A DNA stretch of 64,000 nucleotides from Phascolarctobacterium sp. (GCA_030540395.1 JAUNWI010000009.1:1-64000); one strand, 5' to 3'; positions 12,483-59,223 are shown, numbered from the stretch's first letter. Program-made: numbers and translations. Notes: generated from the letters alone by a model not told the origin.

Positions 12483-12733
12483 GACAGGTGCGCTGACTGT
12501 AATGGTCGGTGCTGAAAAGGGAATCCGGTGCGAATCCGGAGCAGTCCCGCTACTGTAAGTGGAGCCTAAGCATTTATGTCACTGACGAAAAAAGGTGTAG
12601 TTAGCTGCAAAAATGTCGATGCTATGACATAGCAAAACATGTGCTACGACATGAGTAAAGCAGCTAGATGTACCGAAGTTGGGAAGGCGCTGTGGGCGAC
12701 GAAGCTAAGCCAGGAGACCTGCCTGTTGCGAAA
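12483..12733 (+). promoter_or_regulatory. Cobalamin riboswitch
   Basis: Shows the conserved core of the adenosylcobalamin element: GGTGC…GGGAATCCGGTGCGAATCCGGAGC, then GCAGTCCCGCTACTGTAAG, a long peripheral hairpin (about 12590-12670), GTCACTG upstream of it, and the 3' GAAGTTGGGAAGGCGC…AAGCCAGGAGACCTGCC. It precedes cobU and ends about 70 bases before an intrinsic terminator, consistent with transcription attenuation of the cobamide operon by excess cobalamin. Confidence 0.95.
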
Positions 12734-12800
12734 CCGTGAGCCTACGGGAGATAGGCTGGTTCTCGTGCGCAATTAAATAGGAAGAATTTGGAAATTTTGG

Positions 12801-12829
12801 AGCCTCCCGCCATCAGTGGGAGGCTTTTT
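12801..12829 (+). terminator. Riboswitch-controlled terminator
   Basis: AGCCTCCC/GGGAGGCT stem followed by TTTTT, between the riboswitch and cobU. Its position makes it the likely expression platform. Confidence 0.85.
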
Positions 12830-12848
12830 ACATGAAGGGAGGACAAAA

Positions 12849-13436: not shown

Positions 13437-13499
13437 GGCAAAAGCTGAACAGCAGGGGGTTGCCCCTGGGAAACGAAGATAATCAAGGAGATATATATA

Positions 13500-14507: not shown

Positions 14508-14519
14508 GCAGGTGAGAAG

Positions 14520-15355: not shown

Positions 15356-16150
15356 ATGCATATAGAAGAAATTATTCAAAAAATTGTGCCCGCTAACGGC
15401 GATTGCACCAAGCTGGCTCAGGCTCGCTTTGATGCACTGATTAAGCCCGTGGGCAGCCTGGCACAGCTGGAAAAGATGACCGCCAAATATGCTGGCATTG
15501 TAGAAAAATATAATAAGCTGGAGCTGGAATATCCCAAAAGGGAGCTTTTGGTGTGGTGCGGCATCACAGAAGCGGAGCAGGCGACCAAAATCATGGAGGC
15601 CAAGCTGCCGGTGAACGTGCTGGCCGCTGAAACCGGTGCCAGAACCCAGGCCCTTTTGGTCACCGCTGCCAGCGTGGAGGAGGCCTTGGAGGAGGGCGTC
15701 ACTCTGGTGCAGGAAATCGTCCATGAAAAAGGACTGGGCTTATTAGGCTTTGGCTGCCTTGCCAGTGCCGAGGATAACGTGGTTCTTGCAGCCATGACCG
15801 GTGGTATTTTGCAGGCTGCAGCTATGAGAGTGGGCATCATGCTGGACGGGGTGGCTACCTTGAAGGCTGCCCAAAAGGCAGCAGAGCTTGCCCCCGCAGT
15901 TTTGGATTACTGCTTCGCAGGACATGTGAGCACCGAAGCAGGAGTGGAGGAGCTGCTCAAGGAGCTAAAGCTTGTGGCACCCTTGAGACTTAATATTCCT
16001 GACGGAGCAGGGGAGGGCGCAGCACTGTGCTTTACCCTTTTTGATGCCGGGCTCAAGGCCTACAAGGAAATGGAAACCTTTGAGGAGGCCAGCGTCCATG
16101 CGGAGGTGAAGGAATTTTCCTTGGCCGAGCAGGAAAAGCAGGCTAAGTAA
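15356..16150 (+). CDS. Short CobT paralogue, ArsB-like
   Basis: 264 residues, 71 shorter than the CobT upstream. It retains the CobT N-terminus (RFDALIKPVGSLAQLEKMTAKYAGI) and C-terminus (GIMLDGVATLKAA, DYCFAGHVSTEAGVEELLKEL) but lacks the GDHG and GNTT core. Where CobT has LGEGTGA with the catalytic Glu it reads IPDGAGEGA. It therefore probably cannot act alone and may be the second subunit of an ArsAB-type enzyme. A possible TATAAT (15327-15332) and a long inverted repeat (TTGCCAG…CTGGCAA) in the 100-base gap before it suggest separate expression. Strong GGGAGG site. Confidence 0.8.
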   Translation: MHIEEIIQKIVPANGDCTKLAQARFDALIKPVGSLAQLEKMTAKYAGIVEKYNKLELEYPKRELLVWCGITEAEQATKIMEAKLPVNVLAAETGARTQALLVTAASVEEALEEGVTLVQEIVHEKGLGLLGFGCLASAEDNVVLAAMTGGILQAAAMRVGIMLDGVATLKAAQKAAELAPAVLDYCFAGHVSTEAGVEELLKELKLVAPLRLNIPDGAGEGAALCFTLFDAGLKAYKEMETFEEASVHAEVKEFSLAEQEKQAK

Positions 16151-36072: not shown

Positions 36073-36160
36073 TGATTAAATATGCTAGTAAAATAATGCT
36101 TGACCATAAAGTTACTATATGGTGTATAGTATATTCATCTTAAAGAAAGAGGTGACTAAT

Positions 36161-36481
36161 ATGACCTGCACTCATGCAAAGTTCCAAATTCCTACCGATC
36201 CCCATGGTAAAAAGCGCTATGAAAGCGCTATGAAGCACGTAGAAGCAGCTAAAAAGGCTGGCAAATCCTCAGAAGAAATTCATGCACTCTTCAAAAAAAT
36301 AATGGAGTTTAACCCGATGGATATTGAATCCATCCCTAAGGATGAAGCCCATGCCAAATATCGCAGTGCCATGATTCACATGAAGGCTGCCTTAGCAAAC
36401 GGCAAGTCCGTCCAAGAAGCCCATGCCATCGCCAAAAAGATTCGCAGCGGTGAAACAACGGGCCATTGCAAAGCCAAATAA
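36161..36481 (+). CDS. Small protein with an internal duplication
   Basis: 106 residues from the ATG at 36161 (AAAGAGGTGA upstream). Two ~45-residue repeats share the pattern K.Y.SAM.H..AA...GKS..E.HA..KKI: RYESAMKHVEAAKKAGKSSE in the first, KYRSAMIHMKAALANGKSVQ in the second. Cys residues stand near both ends (MTCTH, GHCKAK). No domain is recognised. A plausible promoter (TTGACC … TGTATA) lies at about 36100-36130, so it is probably transcribed alone. Confidence 0.65.
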   Translation: MTCTHAKFQIPTDPHGKKRYESAMKHVEAAKKAGKSSEEIHALFKKIMEFNPMDIESIPKDEAHAKYRSAMIHMKAALANGKSVQEAHAIAKKIRSGETTGHCKAK

Positions 36482-36581: not shown

Positions 36582-37433
36582 TTAGCTAGCTTTAGTAGAT
36601 TGTACCTGAAGGAAAATCAGATTGATATAAGCATTGGTATCGTCATAAAGCCAATGATTTTCAATGGGCAGGACGTAAATATCGCTGCAGGGAGCAAAAT
36701 CATTGCGCTGCATGAAGGCATAAATCTTTTCTTTAAGCTGGACGGCCTGAGCGGAATAAGTACCTTTAAAATAGAGCTCTAAATATAAACCCATGGGTAA
36801 AGGGGTGCGAGGCACCTTATAATGCCCCTTTTGATGCTCAGAAAAAGAAAAGAAGGCTTGGGAACGATTAAAATTGCCGTTTTCAAAAAAGTCCTTTTGA
36901 GCAATAATCCAGCCTGCTTGCTTGTTAACAAAGCCGCGGTTATGAAATACTATTTGAGAATGACGGGCGAATTTAGTGATACGCTTTTTGCTGGTGTCTG
37001 TGTCTAGCACATTCGTCATACGCAATAAGCGTTCTTCTCGCCAAGAAACAGTAATTTGCCCAAGGGGTAAATTCTTATGCTTGGCTATATTTCCCTCTAT
37101 AAAATCAATGGAAGAGATAATCCTTTCGTTCTCTTTGATAAGGCTCTGACATTCAGTGCGCTTTTTCTCAAGCTGCTTGATAAACTCTGTTTTGTTACGC
37201 CGGCTAAGATAGTCTTTTATATCAGAAATAGGGATGTTAAGAGAACGAAAGTTGACGATTATTTCTAGATCAAGGTATTGATTAATGGAGTAATGGCGAT
37301 AACCATTATCACTGATAAAATCAGGGCAGAGTAGCTTAATGCGGTCATAATAAAGCAGTGTTTGTTTAGAAATTCCAAATAAGCTGGCCAGCTCCCCGGC
37401 GGTGAAGCAGTTTTCGAGAGAGATTTTATTCAT
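36582..37433 (-). CDS. MerR-family regulator with GyrI-like effector domain
   Basis: 283 residues. The N-terminal helix-turn-helix is FTAGELASLFGISKQTLLYYDRI (residues ~10-32), then the wing and a long dimerisation helix (EFIKQLEKKRTECQSLIKENERI). The C-terminal ~150 residues look like the BmrR/GyrI ligand pocket (LPMGLYLELYFKGTYSAQAVQLKEKIYAFM…DIYVLPIENHW). It is transcribed away from the NifH-like gene with a shared 121-base control region, so it is the likely activator of that operon. BmrR-type pockets bind bulky, often aromatic or cationic organics, which would suit a tetrapyrrole inducer (inference). Confidence 0.87.
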   Translation of the reverse strand: MNKISLENCFTAGELASLFGISKQTLLYYDRIKLLCPDFISDNGYRHYSINQYLDLEIIVNFRSLNIPISDIKDYLSRRNKTEFIKQLEKKRTECQSLIKENERIISSIDFIEGNIAKHKNLPLGQITVSWREERLLRMTNVLDTDTSKKRITKFARHSQIVFHNRGFVNKQAGWIIAQKDFFENGNFNRSQAFFSFSEHQKGHYKVPRTPLPMGLYLELYFKGTYSAQAVQLKEKIYAFMQRNDFAPCSDIYVLPIENHWLYDDTNAYINLIFLQVQSTKAS

Positions 37434-37554: not shown

Positions 37555-38361
37555 ATGAAAAAGATCGCTATTTATGGCAAGGGTGGAATTGGTAAGTCTA
37601 CCACTGCTGCAAATTTATCTGCCGCATTGAGCGAAGCAGGCTTGAAGGTTTGCCAAATTGGCTGTGACCCTAAAAATGATTCGACCAGACTGTTATTAGG
37701 GCATATCTGTAAACAAACAGTATTAGACACTGTCCGTGATAAGGAAGAGGTTTTACCAGAGGATATCGTCCATTATGGATATAGGGGCATAAAATGTGTG
37801 GAGGCTGGTGGGCCTGAGCCCGGAGTTGGCTGTGCAGGCAGAGGAATTATTGTAGCTTTGGAGAAGCTGCGCGAACTGGATGTAATCGAGGATGAGGACG
37901 TGCTTCTTTATGATGTATTAGGCGATGTTGTTTGTGGCGGTTTTGCTGTTCCCATCCGTGAGGGCTACGCCAGTGATATTTATATAGTTTCTTCGGGAGA
38001 ATTAATGAGCTTGTATGCAGCAAACAATATAGTAAAGGGTATTAAACGCTTTGCGCAAAGAGGTAATGTTCGTTTGGGAGGCATCATAGGTAATGGCAGG
38101 AATACCCCCAACGAAAAGCAGCTTTTGGAAGCATTTGCCAATAGCCTGAATACAAGGCTGGTTGCGTTCATTCCACGAGATATCGTTGTGAATAAGGCTG
38201 AAAATAATCGTCAGACCGTGCTGCAATATGCACCAGAATCAGCTCAGGCACAGGTGTATCGCGATTTAAGCCAAATAATATTGCATAATGAAGAGCTTGC
38301 TATACCGACACCCATGAGTTTTGAGGATTTGGAAAAGCTGGTGGCAGATTATGGCCATTAA
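37555..38361 (+). CDS. NifH-like nitrogenase-type iron protein (BchL/CfbC class)
   Basis: 268 residues, AGGAGG before the ATG. ATP-dependent [4Fe-4S] reductase: P-loop GKGGIGKST (residues 8-16), Cys93 in GVGCAGRGI and Cys127 in [14 protein letters not shown], which together bind the cluster bridging the dimer, and the Arg in GCAGRG that is ADP-ribosylated in nitrogenases. It would deliver low-potential electrons to the two NifD/K-like proteins encoded immediately downstream (11-base overlap). No nifB, nifE/N or nifV is present, so dinitrogen reduction is unlikely; tetrapyrrole reduction, as in BchL, ChlL or CfbC, fits the chelatase neighbours better. Confidence 0.9.
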
Positions 38362-39637
38362 AACAAAACGCTTTATCTCTAGTCGTAAAAGCTGTAGCTG
38401 TAGCATGCCGGGCGTGTGGCGTGCCGTGGCCTACTGCGAGGGTGTAGTGGTGATTTTTCATAGTCCTAAGGCCTGCGCTCATGTGGCAAGAACCATGGAT
38501 ATTAATGCTCAATATCGGACTATTGCAGATGGTCGGAGGGAGGACGTGGGCCCGGTGCCACTGCTTGCCAGTCAGCTCGAAGAAAAGCATTCCATTTTTG
38601 GTGGTGTGGAGCGTTTGGAGGCTTGCATTGCTTATGCGGTACAAGAATATGCTCCGGAATGCTTGGTGATAGCCAACTCCTGCGTAGCAGGAGTAATTGG
38701 GGATGATGTTGAGTCCGTGGCAAGAAGGGCCGAGGAGCTATATAAGCTGCCCGTTCTGAGCTTGGACTGCTGCGGTTTTTTGGATGGTGAATACTACCAA
38801 GGCTATTACGGGATTACAAAATTACTAGTGGATAGATTTTTGCAGCCCTTGCCTCGTAAAGCAGGGCAGGTTTTGCTCCTTGGTGATAATGGTGGTCCCT
38901 GGGGCCATTATGCCCAGGAAGTGACACGTTTGTTGAATGCCATGGGGGTTAAGGTTTTGGGACAGTTTCCCGGCTACATGCCCTTTAAGGAATTGCCTAA
39001 GGTTGCTACTGCCGAAGCAATCATCGTGTTAGGTGGACGAGGACAGACACATATAGGCTTAAGCACTATTGCCAAGCTTTTGCAGGATAAGCTGGGAATA
39101 CCATATTTGGCTGAATATCCGGTGGGTTGGGAAAATACCAAAAAATGGCTAGTGGATGTGGGGCGGCTGTTAGGTCGTGAGCAGGAAGCTGCAAGGGTTT
39201 TGGCAGAGGAACAGAAGCTTTTTGCCAATCGTTTGCAGGATTATTTAAAGGTAACTAGCAAGAAAAAGACTGTGCTATGCATTGGGCGTTTGTTGCAGTA
39301 TTTTCATCCTGAGGCTGTTTTGACAACTATTCGGCTTTTGCAGCTTGATTTAATGGGTGTTGTGCTTTTGAATGCCTATGACCCTAAGGAAAAGCAAAAA
39401 ATGGTGCAGGAGCTGGGCAAGCATCCTGAGCTGAGACTTTATTCAGCTGAAGAGGGAGAGGCCTTATTAGAAGAGGCTGAGCTTGTTTTGACAACTCATG
39501 AATTACAAAACAAACAAATAAAGCAAATTTTTCTGCCCATGTTGCCCAGGGTTGGTACTAGGGGCGAATTGGATTTTATGGAACTGATTTATCGCAGGTT
39601 ATGTAGCAGGATTAAAGGGGGATTAAGTTATGTCTAA
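38351..39637 (+). CDS. NifD-like catalytic subunit, first of a pair
   Basis: 428 residues from the ATG at 38351, overlapping the NifH-like stop. Three cysteines have nitrogenase-type placement: Cys17 (SCSC), Cys42 (SPKAC) and Cys111 ([11 protein letters not shown]); the 25-residue gap between the first two matches NifK and BchN. The EEKHSIFGG motif lies between them, as in NifD/K. The rest follows the Rossmann-like three-domain layout ([24 protein letters not shown]). No FeMo-co ligand context is apparent. It should pair with the next protein as a heterotetramer served by the NifH-like reductase. Confidence 0.85.
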
Positions 39638-40946
39638 GCTAGGGGCAGGTAATTGGGGTGATGTCTGCAAGCGTGTGGATACATGTGCTCTGACTGGTGC
39701 CGCTGCTTTTGTAGCTGGTATTCCAGGAACGGAAATACTAGTTAATGGCCCCCTTTGGTGCTATTTTTATGCTTTGCGGTATCTAGAGCATGGTGCTAAT
39801 GGAATGGCACAGCGGTTTCATGGCTCACAGCCTGATAATACTGCTGTGGTTTATGGTTCGGAAAAGTATATTTTGGCTGCCTTAAAGCGTCTCCAAAAAG
39901 AGGGCAGTAAGCCAGAGCTGCTGTTTATAGAAAGTAGCTGTTCTATGAGCTTGATTGGTGACGACTTAAATGGAATTGCAGCGAAAGCAGGCTTGAAGTG
40001 TCCTTATGTAACCATGGACTGTGGTGGCCTTTTAGGTGGCTTTGTAGAAGGCTATACCAAGGCAGCCTTGTGTGTGCTGGATAAATGCCTGGACCTGCAT
40101 GCTCAACCCCAGGAGCGTGTTATCAACATTTTAGGTCAAACGGATTTTTATCTGCATGGTAGGGATGATACAGAAGAAATGGTGCGCTTGCTGTGCAAGG
40201 CGGGGTATCGACTGCAGGCAGTGCCGGGTAGCGGCAGCTCCTTAGAGCAGCTTAGACATTTAGGTAATGCCCAGCTAAATATTGTTACGAACGAGGAGCT
40301 GGGGTTACCACTAGCCGAATACCTTCAGAAGCGTTGTGGGACGCCGTATATTTTGGCAGGCTTGCCCTATGGCATAGCTGGCACCCAACGGTGGCTGGAA
40401 GGGATAGCTAAGGCTATGCCTGCCCCTAAGCTTGCAGATGTTTATGCCGAGGCAGAGTCTGTAGAAGAGTATGTAACAAGCTTACTAAATGATGCTCGCT
40501 GTCAATGGGGCGATTTGTGGGCGGATAGAATCATTATTAGTGGTCCCCCTACGCAAGCGCTTTGCCTAGGCGAGACGGTAAGAGGGGAATGGGTTGATAC
40601 TTCGGAGCTTTGGGTTTGCTGTCAAAGGCAGCTGCCTCACACTGCACCAAAGGCTTATTGCCAAGCTGCTGATGTGATTTATGTTAGTGGGGAAAGGGAG
40701 CTTCCCTGGGGTGATATGGCTCAATTTAAGGGAAGCCTTCTGCTTTTGGGGAGCAGCAGTGAAAGCAGTCTGCTTTATCGTCAGGGAAGAACTGATTTCA
40801 TAAATTGCAACATTGCTTTTCCCGCCAACGAAGAAATTTTTCTTACAAATCAACCATTAGTGGGATTGGAGGGAAGCAAGCAGCTTGTCCAAAAATTATG
40901 GAATGCATATATCAGGCTATGCATTCAAAAACAGGGTGAAGTATGA
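39630..40946 (+). CDS. NifK-like catalytic subunit, second of a pair
   Basis: 438 residues, 8-base overlap with the preceding gene, AAAGGGGG upstream. Cys19 (DTCALTG), Cys44 (GPLWC) and Cys104 (ESSCSMSLIGDD) stand 25 and 60 apart, very close to NifK (25 and 58). Both subunits thus carry a full Cys triad, unlike light-independent protochlorophyllide reductase where one subunit uses Asp. The middle portion (INILGQTDFYLHGRDDTEEMVRLL) is a typical NifD/K inter-domain segment. It ends four bases inside the next gene. Confidence 0.85.
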   Translation: MSKLGAGNWGDVCKRVDTCALTGAAAFVAGIPGTEILVNGPLWCYFYALRYLEHGANGMAQRFHGSQPDNTAVVYGSEKYILAALKRLQKEGSKPELLFIESSCSMSLIGDDLNGIAAKAGLKCPYVTMDCGGLLGGFVEGYTKAALCVLDKCLDLHAQPQERVINILGQTDFYLHGRDDTEEMVRLLCKAGYRLQAVPGSGSSLEQLRHLGNAQLNIVTNEELGLPLAEYLQKRCGTPYILAGLPYGIAGTQRWLEGIAKAMPAPKLADVYAEAESVEEYVTSLLNDARCQWGDLWADRIIISGPPTQALCLGETVRGEWVDTSELWVCCQRQLPHTAPKAYCQAADVIYVSGERELPWGDMAQFKGSLLLLGSSSESSLLYRQGRTDFINCNIAFPANEEIFLTNQPLVGLEGSKQLVQKLWNAYIRLCIQKQGEV

Positions 40947-41973: not shown

Positions 41974-44900
41974 ATGTGCAAAGTTTTATTTTTAACCAAT
42001 GTTATCAGACGCATGGGCATGATGCAGCAAACCTTGGAAAAGCTGCAGCAAGAGGGTAAGCTAGATGCTTCCTGTGCCTGCAGATGGCTTAAGGATAATA
42101 CACAATGGGATAATAAATGGCAGCAGGAGCTGGAAAGCACTGACCTGGTGTTGATGAAATGGATGGGTAGTGGGCTAGACACTCCTTTTTTGCAAAAATG
42201 TCTGCAGTATCTGAAGCAAAAACAAATACCCTTTTATGTGGATGCAGCTGGCAGCAAGGAAGGCGAGGTTTCGCAAGGTATTCCCATAGATAGGATTGCT
42301 ACGATTAAACAATATGCTCTTTATGGCGGTGAAAAGAATTATTATCATTTGTGGCTGTATTTGCAACAATTCCTGACTAAAGCAGAGGAAAGCATTCCTA
42401 GGCCTGACCCTATTCATTGGACGGGCATCTATCATCCTAGAGCTAAGCAGGTTTACACTGATTTGGCAGCTTATGAAAAGGATTTTTGTGATCCCCAAAA
42501 GCCCAGTGTTGGCATGTTTTTTTATCGTGATGAGTGGGTTTGGGGCGATTTGGAATATCAAAGTGCCATGGTAGAGGCGCTGGAAAAACAAAATTTAAAC
42601 GTTATCTGCGTTTTCACCAATGGTATGCCCAATACGCAAATGGGCATGCCCTCTATCCCGGAGGTAGTGCAGAGATTCTTTTGTAAACAGGGACTGCCAA
42701 TTATTGATGCGCTGATTAATGTGATGAAGTTTTCTTTGACAAGCAGTGGTGCGTTGAATGTAGGATATTTAAAAGAGTGGAATGTACCCGTGCTACAGGC
42801 TTATACAATTATGGCACCCTATGAGGAGTGGAAGGATAGCTTTGAGGGTATGAACGCTATGGAGATTTCCATTAGTGTTTCCTTGCCGGAATTTGATGGT
42901 ATTGTTCATGGGGTACCCATTGCCTGCAAAAAGGTGTTGCCAAATGGGGATGTGCGGTACTTACCCATTGCTGATAGGGTGGAGCTCATGGCACGCAAGG
43001 CCGCCAAATGGGCCCGCTTACGCCATAAGGCAAATGCTGACAAGAAAATAGCCATCATTTTTCATAATTATCCACCTCGTAATTCCAATATAGGCAGTGC
43101 CTTAGGCTTGGATACCATTGAAAGCATTCGCCGCGTTTTGGCTTTAATGCAGGAGCGCGGCTATAAACTGGATACAATTCCCCAGGATACAAAGGAATTT
43201 ATTAAGCAATTAACTGCCAACGCCACCAATGACCGCAGCATGCTTACAGAAAAGCAGATGGAGGCTGCTTATAAGCTTTTAGGTAAGGAATATGCAGCCT
43301 TTTATAAGGGCATGCCGCAGAAGGTGCAGGAGCAGCTGGTAAAGGATTGGGGCGAGACTCCGGGCGAGGTTATGGAGTACAACGGGGATATCCTTGTTCC
43401 GGGCACCATGAACGGCAATGTTTTTGTGACCGTGCAGCCGCCGCGTGGCTTTGGCGAAGACCCGGAAAAGATTTATCACGACCCCTTTGTGGCGCCAACA
43501 CACCAGTATTTGGCCTTTTATAGATGGATTAGGGATGTGTGGCAGGCGGATGCAGTGGCACACATTGGTACTCATGGCAATTTAGAATGGCTGCCAGGCA
43601 AGAACGCCGGCTTAAGCGATAGCTGTTACCCCGACCTGGCACTGGGTGATTTGCCAAATATTTATCCTTATAATATCACAATCACCGGCGAAGGTATCCA
43701 GGCCAAACGTCGTGGTGCGGCCTGCCTTGTTGAACACTTGCCTGCGCCGCAAACGCAAGCGGGTGTTTATGATGAGCTGGAAGAGCTAGAAAAGCTCATG
43801 GAAGAATATATTCATTTTGAGACAACCCAACCGGAGAGCTTACCCAACCTGGAGCAAATGCTCAAAGAAAAAGCTGCTGCCGCTAATTTGCAGGATGAGG
43901 TGGTTTATGACGAAGCCAAGCCCTTTAAGGAATATGTGATGGCTTTGCATAATTACATTAGCGAGTTAAAGAATATGGAGGTGCATACGGGCCTGCATAT
44001 TTTGGGCCAGCCGCCTAAGGATGAACAGCTGATTGATTATTTGTGGTTGCTGCTGCGCTTGGATAATGGCGATGTTCCCAGCTTAACCCAAGCTGTTTGC
44101 GCCCTGTATGGCTTTGATTATTACGAGCTTTTGGAAAATAGCGGGCTTATTTATGAGCCCTTGAATATCTCCTACGGCATGCTGCTGGATAGAGTGGGTG
44201 AGCAATGTCGCGAGCTTATCCGCTTGCTGGCTACGCAGGATTTTGAGCCTGGTGCTTGGCAGGAGGTAGAAAAGCTGCTCTGGGTTGCTTGTGCGCCGCA
44301 GGAGCTGCGGCAAAAGCTGCAGCAGGTGTGCGAGTATACCTGCACCAAGGTTTATCCCAATCTGCAGCTTACTACCCAGGAAATCGAAAATGTACTGCGT
44401 GGCTTTAATGGGGAATATATCGAGCCAGGTCCTAGTGGCGCTCCCTCCAGCGGTGGCGCTGATTTGCTGCCCACAGGTCGCAATTTTTATGGTGTGGACC
44501 CGCGTACGCTGCCCACGCCTGCGGCTTGGGAGATTGGCAAGCAGCTGGCGGACCAGGTTATTGAACGCTTTATTGCGGAAGAAGGGCATTACCCGGAAAA
44601 CATCGGCATCGTGCTGTGGTCTGGCTCCAATATGCGCAGTCATGGACAATGCATTGCGGAATTCCTCTATTTAATGGGTATTAGGCCAAAATATCAAAGT
44701 GGTAGCTTACGGGTTTGTGGCCTAGAGGTTATTCCACTAACGGAGCTAAAGCGACCTCGTATTGATGTTATGAGCCGCATCAGCGGCCTGTTTAGGGATT
44801 CCATGCCTGCTGTGGTAAATTTGTTGGACAAGGCAGTGCTTTTAGCTGCGGAGCAGGAGGAAGACCAGAAGCTTAACTATGTGCGCAAGCATATTCAAAA

Positions 44901-45690
44901 CGATAGCAAGGAGCTGGAGAACACTGAGGGCATGACCCACGAGGACGCTTGGCGACAGGCTGCCTTCCGTATTTTTGGCGACCAGGAGGGCTGTTATGGC
45001 GCTGGTGTGGCGGCGCTATTAGAAGCAAAGAATTGGGAGAGCATTGACGATATTGCTGATGTTTATGTGCGCTGGGGCGGCCATGCCTATGGCGGCAAAA
45101 CAAGGGGCAAATTTTTGCCACAGCAGTTCCGTAAACGTTTAGGCAGCCTTGATGTGACAATCAAGAATGAAGATAACCACGAAACCAATATGCTCAGCAG
45201 CGATGATTATAATGCTTATCACGGCGGCATGATTGCCTGTGTGCGCAGCATTAAGGGAAGTGCGCCGCGCTCCTATTGTGGCGATAGCACGGATAGAACG
45301 AAAATTACTATGCATAGTGTACAGGAGGAGGCCAAACGGATTTTTCGTAGTGAAGCCATCAATCCTAAATATATCGAAGGCATGATGAAGCATGGCTATA
45401 AGGGCGCAGCGGATATGGCCAATATGATTGCGCATAGCTTTCAGTGGGATGCTACCAGCGCCGTGATGGAGGACTGGATGTACGAAAAATATGCAGAAAA
45501 ATATACCTTTGACCCCAAGGTACAGGAATGGCTTAGGGATGTTAATCCATGGGCTTTGCAGCGGATGACAGAAATCTTGCTGGAGGCAGAGCAGCGTGGC
45601 TTGTGGCACGCCAAGCCTGAGACCAAGGAGGAGCTACAGCAGCTATACTTGGAAATGGAGGGCGAATTGGAGGAGAGGGCTGATGACTAG
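41974..45690 (+). CDS. cobN: CobN/ChlH-family metallochelatase large subunit
   Basis: 1238 residues, typical CobN length, with AGGAGGAG upstream. Family blocks are clear: KKIAIIFHNYPPRNSNIGSA (~360), VTVQPPRGFGEDPEKIYHDP, HIGTHGNLEWLPGKNAGLS (~540-560), NIYPYNITITGEGIQAKRR and, near the C-terminus, RWGGHAYGGKTRGKF and DYNAYHGG. CobN inserts Co2+ into a corrin, ChlH inserts Mg2+ into protoporphyrin, and HmuS of Bacteroidetes is reported to remove iron from haem; the sequence does not tell which. ChlI- and ChlD-like partners are encoded downstream, giving a full HID-type complex. No signal peptide, hence cytosolic. Confidence 0.9.
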   Translation: MCKVLFLTNVIRRMGMMQQTLEKLQQEGKLDASCACRWLKDNTQWDNKWQQELESTDLVLMKWMGSGLDTPFLQKCLQYLKQKQIPFYVDAAGSKEGEVSQGIPIDRIATIKQYALYGGEKNYYHLWLYLQQFLTKAEESIPRPDPIHWTGIYHPRAKQVYTDLAAYEKDFCDPQKPSVGMFFYRDEWVWGDLEYQSAMVEALEKQNLNVICVFTNGMPNTQMGMPSIPEVVQRFFCKQGLPIIDALINVMKFSLTSSGALNVGYLKEWNVPVLQAYTIMAPYEEWKDSFEGMNAMEISISVSLPEFDGIVHGVPIACKKVLPNGDVRYLPIADRVELMARKAAKWARLRHKANADKKIAIIFHNYPPRNSNIGSALGLDTIESIRRVLALMQERGYKLDTIPQDTKEFIKQLTANATNDRSMLTEKQMEAAYKLLGKEYAAFYKGMPQKVQEQLVKDWGETPGEVMEYNGDILVPGTMNGNVFVTVQPPRGFGEDPEKIYHDPFVAPTHQYLAFYRWIRDVWQADAVAHIGTHGNLEWLPGKNAGLSDSCYPDLALGDLPNIYPYNITITGEGIQAKRRGAACLVEHLPAPQTQAGVYDELEELEKLMEEYIHFETTQPESLPNLEQMLKEKAAAANLQDEVVYDEAKPFKEYVMALHNYISELKNMEVHTGLHILGQPPKDEQLIDYLWLLLRLDNGDVPSLTQAVCALYGFDYYELLENSGLIYEPLNISYGMLLDRVGEQCRELIRLLATQDFEPGAWQEVEKLLWVACAPQELRQKLQQVCEYTCTKVYPNLQLTTQEIENVLRGFNGEYIEPGPSGAPSSGGADLLPTGRNFYGVDPRTLPTPAAWEIGKQLADQVIERFIAEEGHYPENIGIVLWSGSNMRSHGQCIAEFLYLMGIRPKYQSGSLRVCGLEVIPLTELKRPRIDVMSRISGLFRDSMPAVVNLLDKAVLLAAEQEEDQKLNYVRKHIQNDSKELENTEGMTHEDAWRQAAFRIFGDQEGCYGAGVAALLEAKNWESIDDIADVYVRWGGHAYGGKTRGKFLPQQFRKRLGSLDVTIKNEDNHETNMLSSDDYNAYHGGMIACVRSIKGSAPRSYCGDSTDRTKITMHSVQEEAKRIFRSEAINPKYIEGMMKHGYKGAADMANMIAHSFQWDATSAVMEDWMYEKYAEKYTFDPKVQEWLRDVNPWALQRMTEILLEAEQRGLWHAKPETKEELQQLYLEMEGELEERADD

Positions 45691-46708
45691 AAAAATAAAA
45701 ATGTTGGTGCTCAGTCTAACCGGAAAATGTAATTATGCTTGTCGTTATTGTTATGCTGCGTCCCATGAGCGCATGTGCATGACAAAGGAAACAGCCTTGG
45801 CCGCTTTACAACTAGTCCCTCGGGATGAAAGCTTTATTTTGCAGTTTTCAGGAGGCGAACCATTGCTAAATTTTGAGGTGCTGCAGGCTGTTGTCGAGCA
45901 AGTAGAAAAGGAGCAGCTTCCTGCTATTATGCAAATTCAGACTAATGGTTCTTTGCTGACTGATGAGATAGCTATCTTTTTGTACAAGCATAAGGTTGCA
46001 ATAGGTGTGAGCCTAGATGGAAGACCTAACGTAAATGACAAGCTGCGCATCAAAAAGAATGGTCATGGTGCAACAGGAGCAACTTTAAAGGGCGTTGAGA
46101 TTTTAAGAAGAAATAATATCGCCTGTGGAATAACCTGTGTTGTAACAGATGAAAATGTACGTGAGCTTAGCGGCATAGTTGACTTTGCCTATTTTTTGGG
46201 TAATATTCGTAAAATTGGCTTTGATATTTTGAGAGGGCAGGGACGGGGCAAGAGCCTTAAGCCACCGGCAGCCAAGGATATGGAGGAGGCAATGAAGCTG
46301 GTTTATGCAAGAAGGGACACTTTGACCAGGCTAAGTGGGGTATATATAGAAATTGCCCAGCAGGAAAGAGTGAAAACTCTGTGCCGAGGCAATAGTCATA
46401 CCTTTGGCCATTGTTATGCCATGAATGGCGAGGCCGCCTTTGTGACTGCCAAAGGAGATATTTATGCTTGTTCTTCCTTGATAGGCAATCAGGATTTTTA
46501 TCTTGGCAATGTGATAACGGGCATAGAACAGGAACTAGTGGAGAAAACCATGCTGTTTATAAGTGAGTCCATGGCTTTTTGTCGCCAATGCTCTGATTTT
46601 CAGCTGTGCGGCGGTGGTTGCTTTGCACGTTGGTATGGCATGGATGATAAAGAGGACTATGGCGCTGAATGCGCAATGAAGCGCGTGTCCATCAAACAGG
46701 TTGTGTAA
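45683..46708 (+). CDS. Radical SAM/SPASM enzyme
   Basis: 341 residues from the ATG at 45683, overlapping the CobN stop (GGAGGAGAGG upstream). The CX3CX2C motif that binds the SAM-cleaving cluster is CNYACRYC (Cys16, Cys20, Cys23); GGEPLLNF follows. The C-terminal SPASM region has Cys-rich segments ([33 protein letters not shown] and a final ECAMKR) for auxiliary Fe-S clusters. SPASM enzymes commonly modify peptides, but others act on small molecules. Here it may alter the tetrapyrrole or mature a neighbouring protein; no obvious precursor peptide was found. Confidence 0.87.
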
Positions 46709-46739: not shown

Positions 46740-47771
46740 ATGAAACGAACTGCAGTATATCCCTTTACCGCTATTGTGGGTCAGGAGGATATGAAGCTAT
46801 CCTTGATTTTGAATGTTATTAACCCTGCTTTGGGTGGTGTTTTGATAAAAGGCGAAAAGGGTACAGCCAAATCCACCGCTGTGCGAGCCTTGGCGGAGCT
46901 GTTGCCTGCCATGGAGGTAGTACATGGATGCAAATTCCATTGCGACCCGTATGATGCTAACCATATTTGCGATGATTGCAGTGCTTTGCTGCAAAAGGGC
47001 GAAGCACTGCCTATGGAAAGCGTAAAGATGCGGGTAGTGGAGCTGCCTGTGAGTGCAACGGAAGATAGAGTTGTAGGTACACTTGATATTGAGCATGCTA
47101 TTAAGCATGGTGAAAAAAAGTTTGAGCCGGGCATTTTGGCCTTGGCCAACCGCAACATTCTTTATGTGGATGAGATTAATCTTTTGGATGATCATGTGGT
47201 GGATGTGCTGCTGGATGCGGCGGCCATGGGCATCAACACTGTGGAGCGGGAAGGTGTTTCTTATTCCCACCCGGCGCGTTTTGTACTCGTAGGTACCATG
47301 AACCCGGAGGAGGGCGATATTCGTCCTCAGCTTTTGGACCGCTTTGGCTTGAGCGTGGTGGTAACAGGCGAGCATGACCCGGAGCAAAGGGTGGAGGTTA
47401 TCAAGCGTCGCTTGGCCTATGAGCAGGATGCAGAAGCTTTTATTGCCCAATATCAGGAGGAGCAGGAGGAGCTGGCAGCAAGGATTATACAAGCTGGTAA
47501 GCTTTTGCCGGCGGTAACGATTGACGATAAGCTTTTGGAAACAGTGGCTAAGCTGGCTGTAGAGCTGGGCGTGGATGGGCACCGCGCTGACATCACTGTT
47601 ATTAAAACTGCGCTCACTATTGCTGCTTTTAATGGTCGCACCGAGGCAGAGCTGGACGATTTAAAGCAGGCTGCAAAATTGGTGCTGCCCCACCGCATGC
47701 GTCGCCGCCCCTTTGAAGAGGGACAATTAGATTGGGATAGGGTAGAAAGCTTTTTGGCAGCAGAGGCTTAA
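46740..47771 (+). CDS. ChlI/BchI-like chelatase AAA+ subunit
   Basis: 343 residues from the ATG at 46740 (AGGAGG upstream). Walker A is [10 protein letters not shown] (~36-45), Walker B is [23 protein letters not shown], and the sensor/Arg-finger region is [20 protein letters not shown]. The [19 protein letters not shown] insertion with four Cys is typical of magnesium-chelatase I subunits. It forms hexamers with the D subunit to power metal insertion by the CobN/ChlH protein. 31 bases after the radical SAM gene. Confidence 0.92.
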
Positions 47772-47782
47772 GAGGTAAAGAT

Positions 47783-49717
47783 ATGCATACTAATTCTCTT
47801 TATCCCTTTGCGGCCGTGGTAGGGCAGGAGCAGGCTAAAAAGGCTTTACTGATTGCCTTGGTCAATCCCAAGGCCGGAGGGCTTTTAATCGGCGGTCGCA
47901 AGGGTACGGCGAAGTCTGTGTTGGCGCGCAGCACGAAGGAGCTTATAGAGCCGAAGCAGTTTATTGATTTGCCCTTAAATGTGACGGAGGATATGCTATT
48001 CGGCAGCATCGATATCGAATATGCAGTGAGCAAGGGGCAGAAGCGTTTTGCTCCCGGCATTTTGGCTCGTGCTAACGAAAATGTGCTTTATATTGACGAA
48101 GTTAATTTGCTGCGCCAGGAGCTTTTGCTAGCGGTTTTAGATGCTAATGCTGCTGGACTTAATCAGGTGGAGCGGGATGGCATCTCCTTTACTCATCCGG
48201 TGCACCTCACTGTTTTGGCTACCATGAACCCTGAAGAGGGTGTGTTACCCCAGCATATTTTGGACCGCTTTGGCATGTATGTGGATGTGACAAGTGAAAT
48301 GGAGCTGGAGCAAAGGATAAAGATTATGCGCCAAGCCTTAGCATATGGTAGCGATGTAGCTAGCTTTCGCAAGGAGTATGCCACCGCAACGCAGGAGCTG
48401 AGGACAAAAATTGCTGGAGCCATGGAGCTTTTACCCCAAATTCAGCTGAGTGATGCCATGTTAATTTTGGCAGCACAAATGGTTAGCCAGGCTCTGTGCG
48501 CTGGCCACCGTGCGGAGATTTACTTGTTAGAAGCGGCCAAGGCCTTGGCCGCGCTGGCAGGGCGTGCTTATGTGCTGCCTAAGGATGTGGAGGAGGCAGC
48601 GCAATTTGTATTGCCCCATCGCATGCGCAAGCTGCCGGAGCCACAGGAGCCGGAGGAAAGCGAACAGGATAACCCAGAGCAGGATGAGGATGAATCCGAG
48701 AATAATGATGATGAAGCTCAGGATAATCCCCCTGATGATAATAATTTGCCGTTCCCACCCGTGGATAATAATGATGATGGATCTGCTGATGATGAGCAAG
48801 ACGAAAATGAGCAGGACGAAAAGGACGAGCAGGAGCCACAGCAAAACAATAACCAGCGGGCTACTGAAGAGCAGATTGCAGATATCGATAAAGGCTTTCG
48901 CCTGCCTAAGATGCTGTTGGACTTGGGCAAGGACCGCAATATTCGCCGCGGCAGCGGCAAGCGCAGCACCACTCGGACCGATTTGAAGCAGGGCCGCTAT
49001 GTGCGTGCGGAGCTGCCCAAGGCGAAGGTGGAGGATTTGGCCTTTGATGCTACTATTCGCGCTGCGGCTCCCTTTCAAAAAATGCGGGAGGATAATGGCT
49101 GCGCCTTAAATATCAAGCCAGAGGATTTACGGCAAAAGGTGCGGGAAAAACGCATTGGCAATACCTTTTTGTTTGCTGTTGATGCTAGTGGCTCCATGGG
49201 TGCACGGGAGCGCATGCGTGCTGTGAAGGGTGCGATTTTTTACATGCTGCAGGAGGCTTACCAAAAGCGTGACCGTGTTGGCATGATTGCCTTTCGACGC
49301 CAAAAGGCCGAGGTGCTTTTGCCTATTACACGTAGCGTAGATTTAGCACAAAAATGCTTGGCAGAGCTGCCCACAGGTGGTAAAACCCCCTTGGCTGATG
49401 GCTTAGCTGTGGCTTTACAAACTCTATCCATGCTCAATAAGCACGATAGTGAGTTGGAGCCCATTTTGGTACTGGTAACGGACGGAAGGGCTAATGCTAC
49501 GGAGGAAAATGGCGGTGACCCGGTGCATAGTGCCCTAAAAATGGCGGAGCGCATTGGCAAGGCAAAAATTACCTCCGTGGTTATTGATACGGAATCGGAC
49601 TTTATTAAGCTGGGTTTGGCTAAACGTATTGCAGCGGCCATGGGTGCCAATTATTATACGCTGCAGCGTTTGTCCAAGGATAGCATTATTCGTATTGTGC
49701 GCAGTTTGGATGCTTAA
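47783..49717 (+). CDS. ChlD/BchD-like chelatase subunit (AAA+ plus VWA)
   Basis: 644 residues. The N-terminal AAA+ domain keeps a complete Walker A (GGRKGTAKSV) and LYIDEVNLL, whereas many D subunits have lost theirs. A ~75-residue acidic, Asn/Pro-rich linker (about 295-370) leads to a C-terminal VWA domain with an intact MIDAS: DASGSMGARERM, then TGGKTPLADGLAV and VLVTDGRAN. The D subunit bridges the I ring and the H/CobN subunit. 11 bases after the I-like gene. Confidence 0.92.
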   Translation: MHTNSLYPFAAVVGQEQAKKALLIALVNPKAGGLLIGGRKGTAKSVLARSTKELIEPKQFIDLPLNVTEDMLFGSIDIEYAVSKGQKRFAPGILARANENVLYIDEVNLLRQELLLAVLDANAAGLNQVERDGISFTHPVHLTVLATMNPEEGVLPQHILDRFGMYVDVTSEMELEQRIKIMRQALAYGSDVASFRKEYATATQELRTKIAGAMELLPQIQLSDAMLILAAQMVSQALCAGHRAEIYLLEAAKALAALAGRAYVLPKDVEEAAQFVLPHRMRKLPEPQEPEESEQDNPEQDEDESENNDDEAQDNPPDDNNLPFPPVDNNDDGSADDEQDENEQDEKDEQEPQQNNNQRATEEQIADIDKGFRLPKMLLDLGKDRNIRRGSGKRSTTRTDLKQGRYVRAELPKAKVEDLAFDATIRAAAPFQKMREDNGCALNIKPEDLRQKVREKRIGNTFLFAVDASGSMGARERMRAVKGAIFYMLQEAYQKRDRVGMIAFRRQKAEVLLPITRSVDLAQKCLAELPTGGKTPLADGLAVALQTLSMLNKHDSELEPILVLVTDGRANATEENGGDPVHSALKMAERIGKAKITSVVIDTESDFIKLGLAKRIAAAMGANYYTLQRLSKDSIIRIVRSLDA

Positions 49718-54734: not shown

Positions 54735-54756
54735 GATAACATCAAATGAAAAATTT

Positions 54757-54912
54757 TATCGATAGGTAAGCAATTTTAATAGAGAAGCTGGGTGAGATTC
54801 CCACACGATCCCGTCGCTGTGAAAGGGAGCGACTTCACACAATGTCACTGGCACAAGCTGGGAAGGCGTGAAGGAGCGATGAACTTAAGTCAGAAGACCT
54901 GCCTATTCGATT
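54757..54912 (+). promoter_or_regulatory. Cobalamin riboswitch upstream of the TonB receptors
   Basis: ATCGATAGG (54758-54766) pairs with CCTATTCGAT (54902-54911) as P1. Between them lie GCTGGGTGAGATTCCCACACGA, GATCCCGTCGCTGTGAAAGG, ATGTCACTGG, and GCTGGGAAGGCGTGAAGG…GAACTTAAGTCAGAAGACCTGCC, the conserved core of the class. It is shorter than the copy at 12483 because the peripheral hairpin is missing. It should reduce receptor expression when cobalamin is plentiful. Confidence 0.93.
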
Positions 54913-54961
54913 CTGCTACTGCTGCGCGCGACAGTAAGGGTATGGGGATAAGTATCTCTCT

Positions 54962-55031: not shown

Positions 55032-55258
55032 GTAACATACGGTCATGCAAGAATGGGTATGGGAAAGCATTTCAATAAATTATATTTTTGTATCATTTCA
55101 AAGGAGTGACTTGAATGGACGTAAAGGTTACTAAAAGTTTGTTGATGACAGCCCTGATTACGGGTTCCGTACTTTGGGGGGGTGCATCTGCATTTGCTGA
55201 AGAGAGCGTGGGCGAATTTGAATTAGACCCCATGGTAGTTACTGCTCAAAGAATGGAA
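55032..55258 (+). repeat. Shared receptor 5' segment, copy 1
   Basis: From GTAACATACGGTCATGCAAG through the ribosome binding site AAAGGAGTGA and about the first 48 codons it is over 90 per cent identical to 57141-57366. Beyond this the two receptor genes diverge. It includes 83 bases of leader. Confidence 0.85.
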
Positions 55259-57037
55259 ACCAGAGATTTGGATACGCCGGCTGCTGTTAGTGTTATTACT
55301 GCAAAAGATATTGAAAATAGTGGTGCTAAAACAGCTTATGAAATCATTGAGCGTCAAGTTGGCTTTACTAATAATGCTTATGGTCCTGGCGGAAGAGAGT
55401 TTGGTGGCTCATCGTCAAGAACTGTACTTCGTGGTTTAGATAAAGGTACTTTGGTAATGGTCAATGGTGCTCCTATTAATATGCTTAATTACAACAGCAT
55501 GGAAGGTATTCCTGCAGCTGCCATTGAGAAAATTGAGATTGTGCGTGGCTCACAATCTGTTTTATATGGTCCTGAAGCTTTTGGTGGTGTTGTAAATATT
55601 ATCACTAAGAAAGGTGGTAAATCTAGAACAACAATATCTGGCGGTGTAGGTAATTATGATAAGAAATGGACTGTATCATCTTCTGGAGAAAAATATAATG
55701 TGTATTTAAGTAAAGACTATTATGGAGATGTTGATCAAACTAATAAGGTGTTCTCGAAGTCAACTCGATTATGGGCAGACAGAAATAGTAGTAAAGACAA
55801 TGCGTTTGTTAATATTTCACCAACAGATAAATTGAGTTTTCAATTCTCTCATACAAAAGGAAAATACTATAGAGATTCATGGACATTGGAAAATGGTACT
55901 AAGACTGGTGCTGGTACTGCATATTTGTATGAGGATGAAAGAAATAATGCAAGTGTTACCTATGATGATAAGGATAATGAATTTAAGGCGATTCTTTCCT
56001 ACAATAAAAGAGTAGTTGATCCATATACTTCAACGATTAAAGACTATCAATACAAGGATATGAAGTCAGCTACTTCTTCAAATTGGAAGATGGATACAAC
56101 TACCTTAGATTTGCAAAAAGGGTGGGGGTTACGCAACAACAAAGATCATGTTATTACTGGTATAACTTTATCTAAGGATAAGATGAATGATAGAGGTGCA
56201 AACAAAGATGCGGATAGGGAGAATGCTGCTGTCTATACATCTTACACTCATGCCTTTAGTGATGTGTTTAATACAACAGTTGGGTTAAGAGGTTCTCATG
56301 TAAGTGACTTTGCAAAAGATCAAAATGTTCTATTGCCACAGCTGCAAACATTGTTAAAAATTAATAATAATACGTCCTGGTATGTTAATGTTGGTAAATC
56401 CTTCCAAATGCCTGCCTTAAATCAATATTTCTCTAAAGGAAGAACTGATAATCTAGAACCTCAAGAGGGCTGGACTTATGAGACTGGTATTAAATGGATT
56501 ACTGATAGCAGTTCTTTAAAGGCTGGCCTTTTCCATATGGACATTGATGGCAAATTTGAATGGATAGATGTCGGGTTACCTGATAAAGTTCTAATGAATG
56601 CTGGAAAGTTTAAAAACACTGGTTTGGAATTAGAGTACAAGCAAAAATTAAGCGAAATATTTAGCTACAATTTAGGAGCTACTTTATCCAATCCTAAACT
56701 ACAGGCATATAATACTGATTACTATACTCAAGCAGAAGCTAAACTGCAATTAGTAGCTGGTTTGGACTATACCATGGGCAAATTAAATTCTAATCTGAAT
56801 TATTTATATTTGGGTAAGAGAGAAAAATCTTATTACAATAGCTTGGGAACTAAAGGCAGTGATCACAGAGTTCCTCATAGAAGTTTACTAAACATGGCAT
56901 TTAATTACAAAGCTGATGATAATCACACAATAGGGTTGACTTTAAATAATATTTTGGATGTTGATGATACTATTAATAAATACGAAAACTGGGGTATGCC
57001 ATTTAACTGGATGCTGACTTATTCCTATTCCTTCTAA
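55115..57037 (+). CDS. TonB-dependent outer-membrane receptor 1
   Basis: 640 residues. Signal peptide (KSLLMTALITGSVLWGGASAFA), then a TonB-box-like stretch (ELDPMVVTAQR), a plug domain (TPAAVSVITAKDIENSGAKTAYEIIERQVG … VNGAPINML … IEIVRGSQSVLYGPEAFGGVVNIITKKG) and a 22-strand-type barrel ending in Phe (LTYSYSF). Control by a cobalamin riboswitch suggests that it imports cobamides or a related corrinoid/tetrapyrrole, as BtuB does. AAAGGAGTGA site. AT-rich barrel region compared with the upstream operon. Confidence 0.92.
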   Translation: MDVKVTKSLLMTALITGSVLWGGASAFAEESVGEFELDPMVVTAQRMETRDLDTPAAVSVITAKDIENSGAKTAYEIIERQVGFTNNAYGPGGREFGGSSSRTVLRGLDKGTLVMVNGAPINMLNYNSMEGIPAAAIEKIEIVRGSQSVLYGPEAFGGVVNIITKKGGKSRTTISGGVGNYDKKWTVSSSGEKYNVYLSKDYYGDVDQTNKVFSKSTRLWADRNSSKDNAFVNISPTDKLSFQFSHTKGKYYRDSWTLENGTKTGAGTAYLYEDERNNASVTYDDKDNEFKAILSYNKRVVDPYTSTIKDYQYKDMKSATSSNWKMDTTTLDLQKGWGLRNNKDHVITGITLSKDKMNDRGANKDADRENAAVYTSYTHAFSDVFNTTVGLRGSHVSDFAKDQNVLLPQLQTLLKINNNTSWYVNVGKSFQMPALNQYFSKGRTDNLEPQEGWTYETGIKWITDSSSLKAGLFHMDIDGKFEWIDVGLPDKVLMNAGKFKNTGLELEYKQKLSEIFSYNLGATLSNPKLQAYNTDYYTQAEAKLQLVAGLDYTMGKLNSNLNYLYLGKREKSYYNSLGTKGSDHRVPHRSLLNMAFNYKADDNHTIGLTLNNILDVDDTINKYENWGMPFNWMLTYSYSF

Positions 57038-57140: not shown

Positions 57141-57366
57141 GTAACATACGGCCATGCAAGAATGGGTATGGGAAAGCATTTCAATATATTATTTTTTGCA
57201 TCATTTCAAAGGAGTGATTTGAATGGACGTAAAGGTTACTAAAAGTTTGTTGATGACAGCCTTGATTACTGGTTCCGTACTTTGGGGGGGCACAGCTGCA
57301 TTTGCTGAAGAGAGTGTGGGCGAATTTGAGCTAGACCCGATGGTAGTTACTGCTCAAAGAATGGAA
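57141..57366 (+). repeat. Shared receptor 5' segment, copy 2
   Basis: Matches 55032-55258 with a one-base length difference and scattered substitutions. The leader part is as well conserved as the coding part, which suggests recent gene conversion or a function in the leader RNA. Confidence 0.85.
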
Positions 57367-59223
57367 AAACGTGATTTGGATACCCCGGCAGCTGTAGATG
57401 TAATTTCAAGAGAACAGGTAGAGCGTACTGGCGGCGCTAGTGCCTATGAAGTTTTACGTCAATCTATTGGCGTATCTGTAACAAGCCAAGGACCAAACGG
57501 AGTTTCTTATGGGGCCATGACTAGTGATGCTACAATTAGAGGTGTAGACCGTGGTACCCTTGTTTTGTTGGATGGAATGCCCTTAAATCAAGATGGTAAA
57601 TATAACTTGGAAGATGTTTCCTCTGACATCATTGAAAGAATTGAAATTGTTCGTAGTGGTGGTTCTGTTCTTTATGGTTCAGAAGCAAGTGGCGGTGTTA
57701 TCAACATTATTACTCGCAAGAATGTTGGCAATAAGGTTAAGGTATCAGCCGGTGATATGGGAAGACAGAATTATTCTGTGACCGTAGGAGATAAAGGCTT
57801 TAGTGCTGTAGCTTTTTATGAAAAAAGAGGACAGATTGATAGAACCTCTACCACAGCTGTGTCTGGTAGAGGCAGCAAAAAAGTAATGAAATACTATCGG
57901 TATGATGATGGTGAACGCAAGGGCATTCGTTGGAACTATGATATCAACGATAAATTACAATTCACTCATAGCTATTCTTTGAATGACAATACAGTATCGC
58001 AAATTAATCCCGACAGTAGCAAGTATAATAATGGTCAAATTCAAAGTAATGATTATAAAGATACCGATAATAGTTTTATGTTGAAATTTGATGATAAGAA
58101 TGGCTTTAAAGCACATCTTTCCTATGGAACTCAGGAAAAGGAATATAATCAAACAGCTTGGAAAAATACTGGTGCAATAGATTCTAGCGGATTATATAGC
58201 TGGCGTAAGGGTCACAATACTAACCTTGATTTACAAAAAGCTTTTGAAATGGGCAATAATAAGCTTCTAATTGGTGCTTCCTTCAAAAAAGAGGATATGG
58301 ACATTTATGGCACCATTTTAAGTGCTAAGCAATATGCAAATTATAGTAGAGATACTTACTCTGTTTATGCTGCGTATGATTGGGCTATGACCGATACAGA
58401 TAATTTATCCATAAATATGCGTGAAACATTTGCTAAAAATTGTTCAGCTGATTATAAAACTACTGTTGATCAATCCAACGATGCCAAGAATTTGAACAAG
58501 TTCACTCCTGAAGTACAATACATCAAGAAAATCAATGATGATAGCTCTGTATATGCGAAAGTTGGTAAATCATTTAGATTGCCCGAATTAACTAGAATAT
58601 ATGGCAGTAGCGTAATCCTACCTTCGGAAGAATTAAAGCCAGAGCAAGGCACTCATTATGAGGCTGGCTATAAACTGAATTCTGGTAATGCGGCTTGGCG
58701 TTTAGCATTATACAAATATGAAATTAAGGACTCCATTGGTTCAACTGGTTCAGCATCTGCTGGCAATTTACGTTATTTTAATGCTGACAGCAAAAGCTAC
58801 GGACTCGAACTGACTTGTGATGTTCAGCATAACGAAAATTTGTCTAGTTCCTATGGAGTTGCAATTAGCAATCCTAAGATGAAATCTGCTAATGATGTTT
58901 TTGAAAAGTATGGTAGCAGGTTACAATTAAATGCTAGTGTAAACTATCAAAAAGATAAATTTGGTAGCTCTTTGATGGCTAACTACTTGGGTAAACGTTT
59001 CGACAATGATGTTGATGGACATCCTGGACTAAAGGTTAAACCTGCTCTGTACACTGATTTCCATGCAACCTACGCTCCGGAAAAAAATCATAAATTCTTC
59101 TTCCATGTAAATAACATCTTTGACAGAGAGGATATAACCACCGATACTGCTCCTTTGGATGATAGATTAGGTTATATTTCTGTAGGTCGCAACTTCATGG
59201 TTGGCTATGAATATAGCTTCTAA
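57223..59223 (+). CDS. TonB-dependent outer-membrane receptor 2
   Basis: 666 residues. The signal peptide and first ~48 residues are nearly identical to receptor 1; the plug then diverges (TPAAVDVISREQVERTGGASAYEVLRQSIG, LDGMPLNQDGKYNLEDVSSDIIERIEIVRSGGSVLYGSEASGGVINIITRKN) and the barrel is only distantly related, ending VGYEYSF. It probably recognises a different ligand. It has no separate riboswitch and is most likely read through from the first receptor, past the UUCG hairpin. Confidence 0.92.
   Translation: MDVKVTKSLLMTALITGSVLWGGTAAFAEESVGEFELDPMVVTAQRMEKRDLDTPAAVDVISREQVERTGGASAYEVLRQSIGVSVTSQGPNGVSYGAMTSDATIRGVDRGTLVLLDGMPLNQDGKYNLEDVSSDIIERIEIVRSGGSVLYGSEASGGVINIITRKNVGNKVKVSAGDMGRQNYSVTVGDKGFSAVAFYEKRGQIDRTSTTAVSGRGSKKVMKYYRYDDGERKGIRWNYDINDKLQFTHSYSLNDNTVSQINPDSSKYNNGQIQSNDYKDTDNSFMLKFDDKNGFKAHLSYGTQEKEYNQTAWKNTGAIDSSGLYSWRKGHNTNLDLQKAFEMGNNKLLIGASFKKEDMDIYGTILSAKQYANYSRDTYSVYAAYDWAMTDTDNLSINMRETFAKNCSADYKTTVDQSNDAKNLNKFTPEVQYIKKINDDSSVYAKVGKSFRLPELTRIYGSSVILPSEELKPEQGTHYEAGYKLNSGNAAWRLALYKYEIKDSIGSTGSASAGNLRYFNADSKSYGLELTCDVQHNENLSSSYGVAISNPKMKSANDVFEKYGSRLQLNASVNYQKDKFGSSLMANYLGKRFDNDVDGHPGLKVKPALYTDFHATYAPEKNHKFFFHVNNIFDREDITTDTAPLDDRLGYISVGRNFMVGYEYSF

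Follow-up and report, generated by a model that had tools for sequence, protein, structure and literature searches.

A nitrogenase-like reductase gene set with two complete cysteine triads and a likely role in corrinoid metabolism of Negativicutes

Nitrogenase-like genes of gut bacteria raise the question of which iron-sulfur cluster their products hold and which molecule they reduce. P-clusters, in the enzymes found described, are always accompanied by an [8Fe-9S-C]-type cofactor. A natural family that keeps both cysteine triads and has no cofactor machinery would separate the P-cluster from the cofactor, and would offer a system in which P-cluster assembly and electron gating could be followed alone. 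The locus discussed here lies in a stretch of 64,000 nucleotides from Phascolarctobacterium sp. (JAUNWI010000009.1:1-64000), hereafter the window, and encodes a NifH-like reductase (H) and two subunits of the nitrogenase component 1 type (D and K). The reading favored, by a modest measure, is that HDK is an ATP-driven nitrogenase-like two-component reductase for corrinoid (B12) salvage or maturation in Negativicutes, the type of its cluster being left open. If true, this would extend the nitrogenase superfamily into the metabolism of vitamin B12, and genes that cause confusion when gut bacteria are surveyed for nifH/nifD, such as the P. faecium "nifD" named in PMC8597730, would acquire a function open to testing.

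Organization of the locus

The H gene (37555..38361, + strand) matches Fer4_NifH with an E value of 8e-109, and its product has a Walker motif and Cys93 and Cys127 at the [4Fe-4S] ligand positions; its score lies slightly below both the nifH and the CfbC equivalog cut-offs. On the same strand follow D, with its ATG at 38351 and a stop codon ending at 39637 (PF00148, E 5.8e-52), and K (39630-40946; PF00148, E 6.7e-43), and the presence of two adjacent PF00148 genes behind a Fer4_NifH gene assigns the set to the nitrogenase-like superfamily. K overlaps by 4 bases with the next gene, which encodes a periplasmic binding protein of the FecB/BtuF type (PF01497, 40943..41908, +). The overlaps H/D, D/K, and K/binding protein range from 4 to 11 bases, the start of D lying over the stop of H and that of K over the stop of D, so that these genes are probably translationally coupled.

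Further downstream, also on the + strand, are genes for a CobN-like class I chelatase large subunit (41974..45690; PF02514), which passes the NCBIfam CobN cut-off (950 versus 822), a radical SAM protein resembling SPASM maturases (45683..46708), and the BchI-like AAA+ (46740..47771) and BchD-like AAA+/VWA (47783..49717) chelatase subunits. A cobalamin riboswitch (54748..54920, +; RF00174, 91.9 bits, E 1.8e-21) lies upstream of the first of two TonB-dependent receptors (55115..57037 and 57223..59223, both +), whose best NCBIfam matches, BtuB and TonB-B12 respectively, are below the cut-off, and a double ABC ATPase of the ECF (cobalt-type) kind (61700..63349, +) scores over the cut-off of NCBIfam ECF_ATPase_1. 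Genes for HlyD/RND export are also within the window. On the other side of H, a divergent MerR-family regulator (36582..37433, − strand; Pfam MerR_1) adjoins the set, an arrangement kept in Acidaminococcaceae loci, and is preceded by a gene (36119..36481, +) for a small His-rich two-repeat protein of 120 aa, which has no Pfam or NCBIfam family over cut-off. Of 51 orthologous loci, 15 have a gene for this protein, possibly a metal or tetrapyrrole binder, no more than 10 kb from D.

Far upstream in the window, a further cobalamin riboswitch (12469-12740) is followed by the CobU, CobT, and CobS genes (12816-15254), behind which there is a CobT C-terminal-like stretch (15356-16150). The window also contains a match to the DUF3800-XI small RNA family (9898-9944, − strand, 63.7 bits).

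The cysteine triads and the interface cluster

Re-reading of the ORFs located Cys17/42/111 in D and Cys19/44/104 in K, the first gap being 25 residues in each subunit and an IGDD motif following the third cysteine of each (I116-G-D-D119 in D and I109-G-D-D112 in K), in agreement with the preliminary description of this DNA. When aligned with phmmer, the D cysteines pair with residues 66/91/158 of MarD, which are P-cluster ligands according to a cryo-EM paper (PMC12552129). In an unguided MAFFT alignment of 52 proteins, the cysteines of either triad share columns with S. fredii NifD C72/98/164 and NifK C70/95/153, and also with those of Nostoc VnfD/VnfK and of BchN C28/53/114; Nostoc VnfE and VnfN likewise have three triad cysteines each. 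The control BchB keeps one cysteine of three at these columns (P11/D36/C95), Cys44 of K standing in the Asp36 column. The earlier view that the D/K site is nitrogenase-like and not DPOR-like is therefore upheld, since the triads align with the NifD, NifK, and MarD ligands and BchB is without two of the three.

The triads were followed through a family set of 59 D (26-88% identity to the window) and 57 K proteins (30-84%) from many Negativicutes families. The three D cysteines are present in 59/59, 59/59, and 59/59 relatives and those of K in 57/57, 57/57, and 56/57, the lone exception being a Ser in a second-copy K (L118), in a genome that has another copy. Judged from their sequences, the triads are the P-cluster ligand set, under strong constraint. 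A chance occurrence or a spurious ORF was considered and is ruled out by the conservation and the overlapping genes. Other cysteines are also well kept, namely, D C92 (55/59), K C13 (51/57), and D C15 (49/59), and their high but incomplete conservation gives room for other ligation schemes.

At the columns of NifD Cys275 and His442, neither D nor K has a Cys or a His in the alignment, so that the absence of a cofactor-ligand context, first put forward as an impression, holds at these positions, and the phmmer alignment places no counterpart of MarD Cys270 in D. The genome of the window, which is 92.65% complete, gave no match for NifB, no further nitrogenase component 1 gene over cut-off, and no second D/K pair. 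Because cofactor ligands and NifB are missing, FeMo-co or an L-cluster is very unlikely, and the conserved triads, taken with the absent FeMo-co ligands, NifB, and second D/K pair, make a P-cluster-like site without FeMo-co plausible. The suggestion of a P-cluster-like double cluster without FeMo-co is thus supported in part: the kept triads and the improbability of FeMo-co or an L-cluster agree with it, but [8Fe-7S] and [4Fe-4S] are not separable by sequence. Whether the D/K interface would hold a P-cluster-like [8Fe-7S] rather than a [4Fe-4S] cluster is accordingly an evenly balanced matter, and the more specific proposal of a true P-cluster that, without FeMo-co or an L-cluster, passes electrons straight into a corrinoid as part of a B12 salvage enzyme is rather doubtful.

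The closest contender, which falls somewhat short of an even chance, gives HDK the same corrinoid role with a CfbD- or DPOR-like interface carrying [4Fe-4S] only, the spare cysteines being structural, redundant, or ligands of a second, separate cluster. It draws on the tetrapyrrole reducers DPOR and CfbCD, which reportedly hold only [Fe4S4] (PMC12552129), on the presence of D C15, D C92, and K C13 beside the triads, which permits other ligation, and on the homodimeric CfbD reported with three Cys per subunit (PMC11423573). However, spare ligands are lost in members with one [4Fe-4S], as in BchB in the MAFFT alignment and in IsrD, which keeps one of three (PMC11423573), whereas in D and K all six are kept despite up to 70-74% divergence. 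CfbD itself is a blurred yardstick of cysteine number versus cluster type, because one paper gives its subunit three conserved Cys (PMC11423573) and another describes it as lacking the full set and holding only [Fe4S4] (PMC12552129).

The AlphaFold model of D, built from five sequences (pLDDT 78), retrieved MarD, NifE, NifD, and BchB chains with Foldseek (E 1e-17 to 1e-20, TM about 0.6), the best being MarD, NifE, and NifD. The predicted model of K is of low confidence (pLDDT 48), and it is by homology that the triads would face the D/K interface; among the relatives that match K best is BchB. In a maximum-likelihood tree that took in Nif, Vnf, the Treponema Mar-like pairs, and Bch, the D proteins and the K proteins form two fully supported clades that are separate from all of these groups; the best reading of these sequences is that HDK represents its own branch of the nitrogenase superfamily, as judged against the groups in the tree. 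Full-length D relatives (E < 1e-115) occur across many Negativicutes families, and, in a draw of 398 genomes, none was found in those sampled from the same phylum outside the Negativicutes. Named records with D relatives are from Phascolarctobacterium, Acidaminococcaceae, and Pectinatus, in a single-query contig scan that gave 4 loci. Phascolarctobacterium faecium was reported to have nifD and to lack nifK (PMC8597730); contrary to that report, a K gene lies directly behind D in this species (L037:9196-12569) and was presumably overlooked owing to the divergence of K.

Corrinoid genes and cobalamin riboswitches around HDK

The distribution of D follows that of CobN, which was found in 29/29 genomes of the order with D and was absent in 33/34 without it, one genome having CobN alone; the Fisher value of this co-occurrence (4e-17) overstates the link, because the species are related. 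The genus of the window itself includes a 99%-complete genome without both D and CobN. Within 10 kb of D, the 51 loci contain CobN (30), FecB (29), FecCD (27), CbiZ (24), BchI/BchD (20), CbiK (7), and BtuR (3). In two loci, L106 (3532-10991) and L110 (4830-12000), D and K are located between cbiK and cbiZ-btuR, and no H match was found at the former.

Regulation points the same way in eight relatives, where the nifH-like gene is preceded, at a distance of 74-363 nt and on its own strand, by a cobalamin riboswitch, and a riboswitch also precedes the operon cbiK-D-K-cbiZ-btuR of L106. On the basis of these predicted elements, HDK in the riboswitch-bearing relatives is a member of the cobalamin regulon. 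A comparable response is documented in Dehalobacter restrictus, where corrinoid starvation raised the transcript of a CobN/CbiZ/Mg-chelatase operon with a cobalamin riboswitch 346-fold and its protein 46-fold (PMC4285132). This corrinoid operon-2, composed of CobN, Mg-chelatase subunits, two CbiZ, and an FepBCD/BtuCDE-like transporter, is the same starvation-induced, riboswitch-bearing salvage cassette, but no nitrogenase-like genes are mentioned for it, whereas the Negativicutes add HDK. Much of the cassette (radical SAM, CN hydrolase, CbiZ, FecCD, BchI/BchD) is shared by 30 CobN loci outside the Negativicutes, 27 of which have no nitrogenase-like genes nearby; the remaining three are close to chlorophyll-type BchL/N/B, which indicates that the search was able to see nitrogenase-like genes. 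HDK would thus be a Negativicutes addition to a corrinoid-salvage cassette, to which the reductase is not essential, as Clostridia carry the CobN/CbiZ cassette without nitrogenase-like genes beside it.

Several observations count against a corrinoid reading. In about 20 of the 51 loci, no CobN gene lies within 10 kb of D, CbiZ is absent from the genome of the window, and no cobalamin riboswitch precedes the window's own HDK operon, where the MerR regulator is found instead. In addition, CbiD, a marker of anaerobic B12 synthesis, is present in 28/29 D genomes; these already produce B12 by the anaerobic route and have no evident need for a CobN chelatase. That CobN works for ordinary anaerobic B12 synthesis is unsupported: CbiD occurs without CobN in 16 genomes of the order, so that CobN is not simply a servant of that pathway. 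Taken together, a role of HDK in corrinoid metabolism is likely, and this functional context, absent from the preliminary description, is more informative than the cluster site.

Two side observations concern gene content. A third component-1 (K-like) gene stands behind btuR in L106 and L110, and in a same-genus relative (L046:13442-19901) the immediate neighbors of the HDK cluster are a second CobN, a gene for a radical SAM protein, and a divergent pair of component-1 genes.

Proposed reaction and relation to known systems

As the genes stand among vitamin B12 genes and are often switched by them, what is reduced is probably not nitrogen but a ring of the B12 type or the cobalt in it, and partner genes for corrinoid uptake, chelatase, adenosyltransferase, and amidohydrolase make an ATP-driven corrinoid reductase the most economical reading; that a tetrapyrrole is the direct substrate is reasonably probable. 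The enzyme would consist of H2 and a D2K2 heterotetramer. H, reduced and loaded with ATP, would hand low-potential electrons to the iron-sulfur cluster at the D/K interface, most likely P-cluster-like and presumably positioned between both Cys triads as its ligands. From this cluster, the electrons would reach a corrinoid or related tetrapyrrole lodged in the cavity occupied by FeMo-co in nitrogenase and by protochlorophyllide in DPOR; as is also generally known, nitrogenase-like reductases without FeMo-co, such as DPOR and CfbCD, accommodate a tetrapyrrole in the same cavity (PMC12552129). As for the exact reaction, we infer two options. The product may be a Co(I)/Co(II)-reduced corrinoid, in which case the step from Co(II) to Co(I) would supply BtuR for adenosylation and then CbiZ for side-chain removal, or it may be a ring-reduced form, since reduction of the ring or the metal would aid metal insertion, removal, or exchange by the CobN-BchI-BchD chelatase.

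Other readings assign the genes to a different chemistry. An exported and re-imported new tetrapyrrole cofactor or metallophore, of the kind proposed for the group VI nitrogenase paralogues, would bring together the reductase, chelatase, radical SAM, export (HlyD/RND), and uptake genes of the window, and group VI, which is said to take part in tetrapyrrole modification, has been linked to putative tetrapyrrole cofactor biosynthesis (PMC9391474); this is unlikely, as few orthologous loci have the export genes again and the neighbors at other loci belong to known salvage and not to new biosynthesis. Less probable still is the acquisition of iron from haem, with the CobN-like protein as an HmuS-type dechelatase and the reductase acting on haem or its ring. 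This was first suggested by the CobN/TonB/FecB context, because HmuS, a CobN homologue, removes haem iron in gut Bacteroides (PMC12583661) and TonB receptors and FecB-type binding proteins serve haem too. It was downgraded, since riboswitches, CbiZ, CbiK, BtuR, and BtuB-type receptors indicate corrinoids and the nearest PDB entry to the chelatase is CobN 7c6o (E 4e-217), ahead of HmuS (1e-118). The six P-cluster cysteines, and a sequence and fold nearest to MarD and NifE, would also suit a nitrogenase, a methylthio-alkane reductase, or a NifEN-like maturase with an [8Fe-9S-C]-type cofactor, but D and K form a separate clade, neighbors for sulfur metabolism are absent, and the lack of cofactor ligands, and of NifB in the 92.65%-complete genome, leads us to reject this reading as exceedingly improbable.

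The corrinoid reductase proposed here resembles several known systems in part. MarDK and NifDK/VnfDK/AnfDK resemble HDK in the full triad that each subunit has at the P-cluster positions, in the NifH-type partner, and in the D/K gene pair; HDK differs in having no cofactor ligands or NifB, in lying among corrinoid genes instead of sulfur or nitrogen genes, and in its separate clade. DPOR (BchLNB) with the Mg chelatase BchHID is likewise a nitrogenase-like reductase that is tied to a class I chelatase set and has no FeMo-co, but it belongs to a chlorophyll context, BchB has P/D/C where K has C/C/C, and K scores 90 bits against a cut-off of 490 with the curated BchB model. CfbCD, the Ni-sirohydrochlorin a,c-diamide reductase, is a tetrapyrrole reductase that works without an L-cluster, as proposed for HDK, and H resembles CfbC almost as closely as it does NifH; CfbD is a homodimer, whereas HDK has two distinct subunits, which score 32 (D) and 21 bits (K) with the CfbD model TIGR03282, against a cut-off of 268.

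Nitrogenase-like pairs without FeMoco ligands were described in Archaea and Firmicutes by Dos Santos et al. in 2012 (PMC3464626), with 3+0 or 2+1 conserved Cys, and cobalamin reduction was suggested there for an NflD next to cobyrinate synthase. These pairs share with HDK the missing cofactor ligands, a NifH-like partner, and, for some, a position beside ABC transporters, while HDK has 3+3 Cys and is associated with CobN. A nitrogenase-like pair that has both triads, lacks cofactor ligands, and is set in a context of CobN and riboswitches was not found in the open-access literature, to which the search extended, and an earlier description in subscription papers is possible. Another nitrogenase-like set, made up of H, ABC transporter genes, and two component-1 genes, occurs in the same order in L064, L065, L066, and L067. 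One of its subunits has C/C/C and the partner S/T/S at the triad, so that it resembles the 3+0 type of Clostridium botulinum (PMC3464626).
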